Below, one piece after another: positions 10,208 to 39,463 of a stretch of DNA of 43,535 nt; within the stretch, counting starts at the first letter, position 1; each line of letters opens with the position of its first letter. The position numbers were made by a program, and so were the translations under genes. This DNA comes from Aeromicrobium sp. (GTDB taxonomy: Bacteria > Actinomycetota > Coriobacteriia > Anaerosomatales > Anaerosomataceae): assembly GCA_015351705.1 (NCBI GenBank), contig JADIIM010000011.1:1-43535 (forward strand). Direction: 5' to 3'. The notes under the pieces are model-generated. The model was not told the origin of the DNA, ran no database searches, and saw only the letters and a program-made list of their open reading frames with translations.

Positions 10208-10238
10208 GCTCCCGGGCGCCGCGCGGGCGCCCGGGAGC
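10208..10238 (-). terminator. Rho-independent terminator of hppA
   Basis: Thirteen-base GC-rich arms (10208-10220, 10226-10238) enclose a 5-base loop, 26 bases past the hppA stop. On the minus strand the stem is followed by GTTGTGTT, a modest U-rich tail. Confidence 0.85.
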
Positions 10239-33500: not shown

Positions 33501-33524
33501 GACCGTGCGGATACGGGCACGGTC
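33501..33524 (-). promoter_or_regulatory. Hairpin spanning the hrcA stop, before dnaJ
   Basis: GACCGTGC and GCACGGTC (33501-33508, 33517-33524) pair with an 8-base loop. The stem covers two bases of the hrcA stop codon and lies 15 bases upstream of the dnaJ start. It could set different levels of HrcA and DnaJ by processing or attenuation; no U-tract follows, so full termination is unlikely. Confidence 0.45.
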
Positions 33525-34545
33525 ACGAACCTACCACCTCGGAAAGCGAGTCCGAGACCACGCGCACTGCGGAGATCGCCCGCCGGTAGTCCATGCGCGT
33601 CGGCCCGATCAGGCCGACGATCCCGCCCGATTCGCCGTCACCATACCGCGCGGCGACGAAACTCGCGTGCTCGAGAGCGCCCACAGGATTCTCGTGCCCG
33701 ATGCGCACCTGCACGCTCGACGACCGCATCACGTCCGAGAGCACCGTCAGCATCATGATCCCGTCCTCGAGGAGCCCCACGAGTGGCCGGACGGCCCCCG
33801 GATCGCTGAACTCGGGGTGTGTCAGCAACGCCGAGACCCCACCGGTGAGCACCCGGTCGTGGTCGGCCTCGGCAAGGCACTCCAGCACATCGTCGAGGAC
33901 CGCCAGGGCGATGCTCGCCTCGCTCGCCTCGATGCCCGCCATCGACGTGCGTACGTCCTCGACCTGCTCACCTACGGCGCCATCAAGCGTCCGCGAGAGA
34001 TACTCCTCCACCCGGCGGACCGTCTCCGGCGTGACCGGGCGATCGAACTCCACGGTGCGGTTCGCCACCTGGCCCGAGTCCGTCACCACGACCACCGAGG
34101 CGCGCTGGGTGCCGAGCGGCACCACGGTGACCCGCCGGATCCGCGCGCGACTCAGCGTGGGGGCGGCCACGACCGCCACATACGACGTGAGGCGCGAGAG
34201 CAGGAGCGACGTCTCGCGCAAGATGTCCGACAGCTCGTGCTCGAGCGACGCGAACCGCAAGCGGACGCTCTCGGCCTCACGCGTGTCCAGGCAGCTCGTC
34301 TGCCCGCTCACCACGTCATCCACGAAGACGCGGTAGCCGGAGTCGGTGGGCACGCGGCCGGCCGAGACGTGCGGCTGGTACACATGCCCGGTCTCCTCGA
34401 GCGCCTGCAGCTCGCCACGCACGGTGGCAGGGCTGAAGCCGAGGCCGTAGCGCTCCACGAGCACCTTGGACCCCACCGGCTGCACGCTTGCGACATACTC
34501 GTCCACCAGGGCCGTGAGGACCCGGCGACGTCGTTCGTTCAGCAT
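33523..34545 (-). CDS. hrcA: Heat-inducible transcription repressor HrcA
   Basis: A 340-residue repressor that binds CIRCE and is kept folded by GroEL-type chaperonin. The ATG at 34545 has AGGAGGT 5 bases upstream; the longer frame upstream crosses CIRCE and the promoter and is rejected. The N-terminal winged helix is clear ([58 protein letters not shown]), followed by [16 protein letters not shown] and a GAF-like core ending [19 protein letters not shown] (landmark). It heads the operon with dnaJ, rsmE and mtaB and should repress its own transcription through the CIRCE found here. Confidence 0.97.
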
Positions 34546-34554
34546 CACTACCTC

Positions 34555-34581
34555 CTGGCACTCACCCATGCCGAGTGCCAG
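34555..34581. promoter_or_regulatory. CIRCE operator (HrcA binding site)
   Basis: Perfect 9-base arms CTGGCACTC and GAGTGCCAG with a 9-base spacer match the CIRCE consensus (TTAGCACTC-N9-GAGTGCTAA) at eight core positions in each half apart from A to G/T to C changes near the ends. It begins 4 bases after the -10 hexamer, covering the transcription start, and reaches the hrcA ribosome-binding site. Confidence 0.93.
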
Positions 34582-34584
34582 ACG

Positions 34585-34613
34585 ATGATAGGACCCGCTC
34601 CACCGAGCGTCAA
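34585..34613 (-). promoter_or_regulatory. Sigma-70 type promoter of the hrcA operon
   Basis: TTGACG (34608-34613) and TATCAT (34585-34590) on the minus strand are exactly 17 bases apart, immediately upstream of CIRCE. No alternative heat-shock sigma site is needed: control is by repression. Confidence 0.88.
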
Positions 34614-34648
34614 ACAGCACGCGAGGCCCGACACGCTTGGAAAGGATG

Positions 34649-34687
34649 GGAGGCCGGGGCTGCTCCGGCACGATCGCCCCGGCCTCC
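34649..34687 (-). terminator. Terminator-like hairpin upstream of the hrcA promoter
   Basis: Perfect 11-base arms (GGAGGCCGGGG and its complement) with a 17-base loop. On the minus strand the stem is followed by CATCCTTTCC. It would end transcripts coming from the hemW side before the hrcA promoter, insulating the two units. Confidence 0.65.
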
Positions 34688-34965
34688 TGGAGGGAGGGTC
34701 ACGTACGCGGCGTGCTCGGCAGGACACCCCACGAGGGGGACCCGGTCGCCTGCCGTACGTCCGGCGTACATGACGGTCTCAGAGCGCGTGCCACCGATCC
34801 TCTACGGAGAAAGCAAACGCCTTCCCCGCAGCGAGGAAGGCGACATGGGCAGCCGTGGCTGCCACTGAATCCCCTTTCCAATGCGGGAGGCCTGGGCGTT
34901 TCCAACCAGACCCTATCGGCAAGGCGACCATGGGTGTCATCCGGTAGGTCGCCACGCTCGGAGAC
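34649..34965 (-). ncRNA. Candidate structured RNA between hemW and hrcA
   Basis: The 424-base gap 34582-35005 has no convincing coding frame but is rich in stems: 34717-34723/34749-34755 (7 bp, with an inner CCCC/GGGG), 34755-34759/34765-34769, 34818-34825/34835-34842 (8 bp), 34848-34854/34857-34863 (palindrome) and 34923-34929/34947-34953 (7 bp). A further 7-bp pairing 34932-34938/34963-34969 would interleave with the last as a pseudoknot or alternative. A 17-spaced promoter on the minus strand lies at one end and a hairpin terminator at the other, predicting an RNA of about 310 bases. It does not match RNase P RNA, tmRNA, SRP RNA or any riboswitch I can recognise. It could also be the 3' UTR of lepA-hemW. 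Confidence 0.5.
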
Positions 34966-34971
34966 ACCCTG

Positions 34972-35000
34972 ACCGTACCCGCATCGGGCGCGTCAGTCAA
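34972..35000 (-). promoter_or_regulatory. Promoter driving the candidate RNA
   Basis: On the minus strand TTGACT (34995-35000) and TACGGT (34972-34977) are exactly 17 bases apart and start 6 bases after the hemW stop codon. The predicted start is near 34965, pointing into the structured stretch and away from hemW. Confidence 0.6.
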
Positions 35001-35005
35001 TGGTC

Positions 35006-36243
35006 CTACCCGCCGGCCCACACCCTGCCGAAGACCTCGTTGCCGAGCAGCCACCCTCGATCGGTGGCCGCCCACCTGCCGGAGACACGTGAGACAAGGC
35101 CCTCGGCAGCAAGGCTCTTGAGCGCCTGCACGACTCCAGCGCGAGCGGCAAGCGCATCATCGATGCCGCGTGTGCGCCGCAGACCGAGCATCGCGTCTTC
35201 GCGGGCGGCCTCCTGCCCGCTCAGGTACTCCACCTCCACCTCGGGCATCACGCCGAGGCCCTCGCGCAGGTCCGGGGTCACGCCGTAGCGCACGCGCGCC
35301 ACGCCGTCTGGCACGATCACGCCGGCCGCCCGCGCCGTGCGAGCGTCGAGCATCCCGTGGGCGCCAGGCCCGATGCCGAGGTACGGCCTACCCGTCCAGT
35401 ACGCGGTGTTGTGGCGCGACTCGGATCCTGGCCGTGCGTAGTTGGCCACCTCGTAGCGCCCGAACCCCTCCGCGGCAAGCATCTTCGAGGCCGCCGCCAG
35501 CATCGCTGCGACCTCGTCCTCGTCGGGCACCGTGAGCTCACCGGCAGCGATGGCCGAGGCGAGCGGCGTGTCGTCCTCCACCTGCAGCGGGTAGACGGAC
35601 AGGTGCGACGGCCCGCACCCGACGGCCGCTGCCACGCTCGCACGCCATGAGCTTTCGTCCTGCCCGGGAAGCCCGCACATCACGTCGACCGAGAGCGCCA
35701 GGCCGGAGTCGACCACCCACCCCGCTGCACGTCTCGCCTCGGTGGCATCGTGCGGACGCCCGAGAACAGCGAGTTCAGCGTCGCTGAAGCTCTGCACGCC
35801 CAGGCTCACCCGTGTCACACCGGCCATCGCGAGCGTCTCGACGAGCGCGGGCGTGAGCGAGTCCGGGTTGGCCTCCACGGTCACCTCGGCGTCCTGCTCG
35901 ACCTCACACCAGATGGCAAGCGCCGAGACGAGCCCGGGGAGGGCATCGCCGAGCATCGTGGGCGTCCCGCCGCCGATGTACAGGGTATCGACGCCGCCCA
36001 CTGCCAGTCCCCGCTCCGCCCATGCGCGCGTCTGGTTGAGCAGCGCATCGGCGATCGCGGCGGGGGGCATGGGCACAGAATCGACCGGCAGCGAGAAGAA
36101 GTCGCAGTAGGTGCACTTCGAACGGCAGACCGGGACGTGCACGTAGACGTGCCGCGGCAGCGCAGGTGGTCGATCGGCCCCCACGTGGCCCGCATCGTCG
36201 CCGGCGAAGAACGGCGGCCCCGTATGCTCCGGGTCGCCGCCCA

Positions 36244-36247
<4 letters not shown>
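35006..36247 (-). CDS. hemW: Radical-SAM heme chaperone HemW
   Basis: A 413-residue radical-SAM protein of the HemW family (formerly called oxygen-independent coproporphyrinogen oxidase-like), which binds heme and an Fe-S cluster. Two tandem ATG codons (36247, 36244) overlap the lepA stop; the first is used here. The cluster motif is CRSKCTYC (Cys41, 45, 48) followed by DFFS, with [32 protein letters not shown] and [11 protein letters not shown] downstream and a HemW C-terminal domain with the [18 protein letters not shown] landmark. The lepA-hemW-hrcA order is standard in Gram-positives. The roughly 30 residues before the first strand are poorly conserved, so the start is moderately sure. 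Confidence 0.95.
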
Positions 36248-39379: not shown

Positions 39380-39401
39380 CGCACTGATCGACAGCGCACG
39401 T

Positions 39402-39431
39402 GCGAAAGGCCGGGGACTCCCGGCCTTTCGC
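39402..39431. terminator. Bidirectional terminator between rpsT and holA
   Basis: Perfect 13-base arms (GCGAAAGGCCGGG and complement) with a GACT loop. Each strand has CTTTCGC on its 3' arm, so it can serve both rpsT (+, 22 bases after its stop) and holA (-, 32 bases after its stop). Confidence 0.88.
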
Positions 39432-39463
39432 ATTCCCTCAGGCAAGCCAACGATGGTGGCGTC

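Follow-up and report, generated by a model that had tools for sequence, protein, structure and literature searches.

A P3-less Moco/tungsten-cofactor riboswitch between hemW and hrcA as a candidate switch for a short non-coding RNA

The hemW-hrcA intergenic region

The window, meaning the whole 43,535-nucleotide (43.5-kb) stretch of DNA that was analysed, carries hemW (35006..36244; TIGR00539, 212.9 bits) followed by hrcA (33523..34545; TIGR00331, 274.9 bits) on the minus strand, and the 460 bp between the end of hemW (35006) and the ATG of hrcA (34545) are non-coding, in agreement with the non-coding stretch described here by a first-pass annotation of the same DNA. Directly ahead of hrcA lie a promoter found by a generic scan (TTGACG-17-TATCAT; 34585..34613, minus strand) and a CIRCE operator (CTGGCACTC-N9-GAGTGCCAG; 34555..34581, minus strand), and a similar promoter sequence as well as the operator occur in relatives that lack the insert described below. 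Where hemW and hrcA adjoin in relatives, the gap usually measures only 62–165 bp and holds little besides the hrcA promoter and CIRCE, values of 21 and -1 being apparent artefacts of automatic stop-codon extension. This comparison, which the first-pass annotation had proposed, marks the window as exceptional, with about 350 bp of extra sequence. Longer gaps of 922 bp (genome G004, locus L052) and 1265 bp (G008, L048) each hold an apparent gene on the opposite strand when read by eye, the one in G008 being multiheme-cytochrome-like.

Read along the minus strand from 35005 to 34649, the insert presents a promoter, an aptamer, an intrinsic terminator (T1), about 120 nt of further sequence, and a terminator-like hairpin (T2), the 3′ end of hemW adjoining this riboswitch unit directly. 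No convincing repeats of the kind that would border a mobile element were found at the ends of the insert. The window is an entire contig of a 60-contig assembly; a small chance of misassembly at the insert remains, although its flanking genes, hemW and hrcA, are the expected ones. Among named genomes, the near HrcA relatives come from uncultured Coriobacteriia.

Identity and distribution of the aptamer

A cmscan search places a member of the Moco/tungsten-cofactor riboswitch family RF01055 at 34855..34975 on the minus strand, scoring 74.7 bits against a gathering score of 36 (E 2.2e-16) and covering the full length of the model (positions 1–135), and the assignment of the window RNA to this family is virtually certain. 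The first-pass annotation was thus right to propose a structured RNA on this strand, although its description as an undescribed RNA matching no known family does not hold. The same annotation drew attention to two interleaved stems. One of them (34923-34929/34947-34953) corresponds to aptamer stem P2; the other (34932-34938/34963-34969) probably arises by chance, since its arm at 34932-34938 is not conserved in the clade of related aptamers. The P3 positions of the model are deleted in the window alignment, and GCCGATAGGG stands at the P3 position in all seven clade members. Copies that lack P3 have been associated with tungsten-cofactor metabolism (Regulski et al., 2008; PMC2408646), and by this rule the ligand of the window copy would be the tungsten cofactor. 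Downstream of the window aptamer there is no gene for a Mo/W cofactor, transporter or enzyme, hrcA being the next gene; a position upstream of a Mo/W gene is the usual context of RF01055 and not a sequence criterion for membership.

RF01055 was present in 56 of the 61 relative genomes searched, and most of the 103 copies with downstream DNA lead molybdopterin oxidoreductases or TupA-like proteins, the downstream genes having been named by eye and few of them checked against Pfam or NCBIfam. No second case beside hrcA was seen among the copies in these relatives. The window genome (G000) itself holds three copies, the window aptamer scoring highest, and the other two lead the formate dehydrogenase gene fdhA (contig C14) and a gene for a TupA-like tungstate-binding protein (C10), the latter scoring below the curated TupA cut-off. 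A recent duplication of the fdhA or tupA riboswitch is an unlikely source of the window copy, because those two aptamers are less similar to it than its clade members are. Further close pairs of Moco-type riboswitches, each pair on one strand, occur at L124 (G048:C7) and L127 (G049:C35).

A clade of seven aptamers with a conserved promoter position

In a midpoint-rooted tree of the 103 aptamers, the window copy falls into a clade of seven (support 0.81), which these searches located in six genomes, all from a single order of Coriobacteriia, namely G000, G004, G009, G016, G056 and, as a tandem pair, G013 (G013a and G013b). The window aptamer is about 69–75% identical to its clade, and T1 begins 12–16 nt past the aptamer match in all seven. 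A covariance model of T1 and the hairpin that follows it (R1) recovers exactly these seven at E < 1e-12 among 396 genomes of the class, the next best match having an E of 1.7e-4; as the seven had been chosen by T1 and used to build the model, this search indicates only how restricted the type is, and the independent evidence for the clade lies in the promoter position and the tree.

The promoter of the unit (TTGACT-17-TACGGT; 34972..35000, minus strand) is sigma-70-like, with a predicted start at about 34965. Being too weak, it escaped the generic promoter scan, whose only find here is the hrcA promoter. Its position is conserved in the clade: the best promoter-like match ends 8–9 nt before the aptamer core in 7/7 clade members and in 0/96 of the other Moco RNAs, and a match of such strength occurs anywhere upstream in 47 of 103 aptamers, compared with 7 of 103 after one shuffle. 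The 17-spaced promoter that the first-pass annotation had placed after hemW is supported by this conservation, the transcript start it gave near 34965 coincides with the one predicted here, and the unit very probably has a promoter of its own.

Terminator T1 and the predicted switch

The expression platform contains the intrinsic terminator T1 (34808..34842, minus strand), with an 11-bp stem and a 3-nt loop; the hairpin proper, missing from the first-pass annotation, occupies 34818-34842 and is followed by the tail TTTGCTTTCT. Within the aptamer, a predicted antiterminator strand, GGAAAGG (34873..34879, minus strand), is able to form a duplex with the T1 5′ arm, at -10 to -13 kcal/mol in all seven clade members, and this pairing predicts an OFF switch. 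The pairing is interrupted in the window and in G004, which in the window weighs against the switch reading. Immediately 3′ of T1 lies a hairpin, H1 (34781..34803, minus strand), which forms part of model R1; its AGAG/CTCT arms in the window correspond to CGGG/CCCG or CGAG/CTCG in relatives, as read by eye from the alignment without a covariation statistic. Ligand-dependent termination at T1 is considered likely.

Under the proposed mechanism, transcription would start from the unit's own promoter at P1. Without cofactor, GGAAAGG would sequester the T1 5′ arm and prevent the terminator from forming, so that polymerase would continue to T2 and release a non-coding transcript of some 320 nt. When the tungsten (or molybdenum) cofactor is bound, the aptamer would close, T1 would form, and the RNA would be only about 155 nt long. 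Both the OFF direction and the ligand are predicted for the window from sequence features.

Sequence between T1 and T2

The unit ends at T2 (34649..34687, minus strand), a terminator-like hairpin with a weak T tail (CATCCTTTCC). The final terminator hairpin of the first-pass annotation is therefore present, its stem being a perfect 12 bp rather than 11 bp. Perfect hairpins of at least 12 bp number three in the 43.5-kb window, T2 among them, and the other two are found at 10208-10238 and 39401-39432. The weak T tail of T2 weighs against the reading as a gated RNA. Between H1 and T2, the stretch termed X′ (34688..34780, minus strand) is predicted to form one long hairpin and is a candidate gated short RNA, but its predicted fold is little better than those of shuffled sequences (z -1.5, not significant).

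In three clade members (G009, G013a and G016), T1 is followed by an element of about 150 nt with predicted hairpins, termed X, with T2 at its end (loci L065, L091 and L064, respectively); it belongs to no Rfam family, and X, X′ and the flanks gave nothing but sub-threshold chance matches to Rfam families other than RF01055. X is 77–80% identical to the G016 copy across genera, and 6 of 51 predicted pairs are altered on both sides, a count from three sequences without a control. All three units share the layout promoter-aptamer-T1-X-T2, and in G013a a second promoter and aptamer, leading a GEGP gene, come directly next, which makes the G013a unit a closed one. This locus (L091; G013:C13:118030-118536) thus carries tandem Moco-type units, each with promoter, aptamer and T1.

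Within the order, an X model matches convincingly only its three founding sequences, many of its matches with E of about 1e-4 to 1 being to the terminator hairpin alone. X′ gave no convincing match to the X covariance model R2, so that homology of X′ with X is unsupported, and the stretch downstream of the G004 aptamer reaches only 17 bits, in a different place, and was likewise rejected as a homologue. The window unit and the X units therefore have a layout in common and not a sequence. Pairing of X′ with the starts of Mo/W genes showed no preference over control genes by a crude method, and visual inspection of the fold predicted for X′ revealed no ANTAR-type dual hairpins with six-base loops. 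Moco riboswitches that act in antisense have been suggested elsewhere (PMC9943018); for the window, antisense action on a neighbour was rejected, hemW and hrcA lying on the same strand as the unit.

The GEGP gene and the history of the unit

The units of G013b and G056 lead a gene for a secreted diheme GEGP family protein (NF041762), and in G016 the GEGP gene follows T1, X and T2. It was searched for and not found in G000, G004 and G009. In G013 and G016 a racemase-like gene stands after GEGP, and this gene comes next in G009; in the window genome an aldehyde-oxidoreductase-like gene adjoins that racemase (76% identity) in the arrangement of G013, the oxidoreductase and its neighbours being named by eye. 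This locus of the window genome has neither riboswitch nor GEGP, and the unit has therefore probably moved; most simply, gene order suggests that it left the oxidoreductase-racemase locus or that a second copy survived elsewhere. The unit of G004 (L277:13643-17234) is divergent from a molybdenum-cofactor-sulfurase-like gene and also from an aldehyde-ferredoxin-oxidoreductase-like gene, both recognised by eye.

Interpretation of the window unit

The unit lies between hemW and hrcA and leads no cofactor gene, so that the product of the switch would be a short RNA. The best explanation is accordingly a P3-less riboswitch acting as an OFF switch that gates a short non-coding RNA, a reading given an even chance; the existence of such an RNA in the window is predicted, and its function is proposed only tentatively. 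An independent RNA was among the possibilities offered by the first-pass annotation and remains the best reading, recast as a riboswitch-gated unit. The two others offered there, a 3′ untranslated region of lepA-hemW and a read-through leader of hrcA, are less likely, because the unit carries its own promoter and T2 and because hrcA has a promoter and CIRCE that relatives lacking the insert also possess. The related proposal of a riboswitch that regulates hrcA or curtails read-through transcription from lepA-hemW, with transcripts reaching hrcA only when cofactor is low, draws on the shared strand and on hrcA being the next gene, about 310 nt 3′ of the aptamer. It is nevertheless improbable, as T2 stands between aptamer and hrcA, and hrcA is served by a promoter and CIRCE of its own, just as it is where the insert is missing. 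HrcA is not known to be connected with the Mo/W cofactor. A 53-codon ATG frame (34610-34771) is open for a small protein under riboswitch control, but it crosses T2 into the hrcA promoter, and the three X sequences carry single-base gaps with frames that are not common throughout, which makes a protein product most improbable.

A close rival to the gated RNA holds that the unit is an orphaned relic, in which GEGP was lost, the unit was rearranged into the hemW-hrcA gap, the RNA is useless and X′ is a leftover. The failure to find GEGP in G000, G004 and G009, the lack of a homologue or an unusual fold for X′ and the absence of a Mo/W gene downstream all favour it, and it is a possible, less probable account. 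Against it, the aptamer is undecayed and, at 74.7 bits, the best of the three in its genome, even though an identity of only about 69–75% to its clade implies enough time for decay; promoter, T1 and H1 have also been kept. A broader extension of the gated-RNA reading would place an independent non-coding RNA under a tungsten-cofactor riboswitch, in a family of units (promoter, aptamer, T1, structured RNA, T2) that outlives its protein genes and travels apart from them; three genomes would carry the RNA as X and the window would carry it in diverged form. This is regarded as rather unlikely.

Comparison with known systems and significance

For RF01055, expression platforms of the terminator type and terminator-bearing tandem copies have been described (PMC2408646). 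The window unit, a full-length match of P3-less form, differs from the usual members: no gene for Mo/W or the cofactor follows it, it carries its own compact promoter starting at P1, and it has a second terminator. EutX/Rli55 is a trans-acting non-coding RNA under the control of a cobalamin riboswitch and need not adjoin its targets (reviewed in PMC5821096). The window RNA would be comparable in layout, with its own promoter, an aptamer, a terminator predicted to be ligand-dependent and then a non-coding stretch, and any action in trans is putative; it differs in the class of its aptamer, and no target site for an ANTAR protein was recognised in X′. A limited search of the open literature found no stand-alone RNA gated by a Moco/tungsten riboswitch. 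If the unit works, a stand-alone RNA would report Mo/W cofactor status in the way that EutX does for cobalamin, and a riboswitch would have outlived its gene in a new location. Even as a relic, the unit would clearly exemplify a riboswitch retained although its gene was lost.
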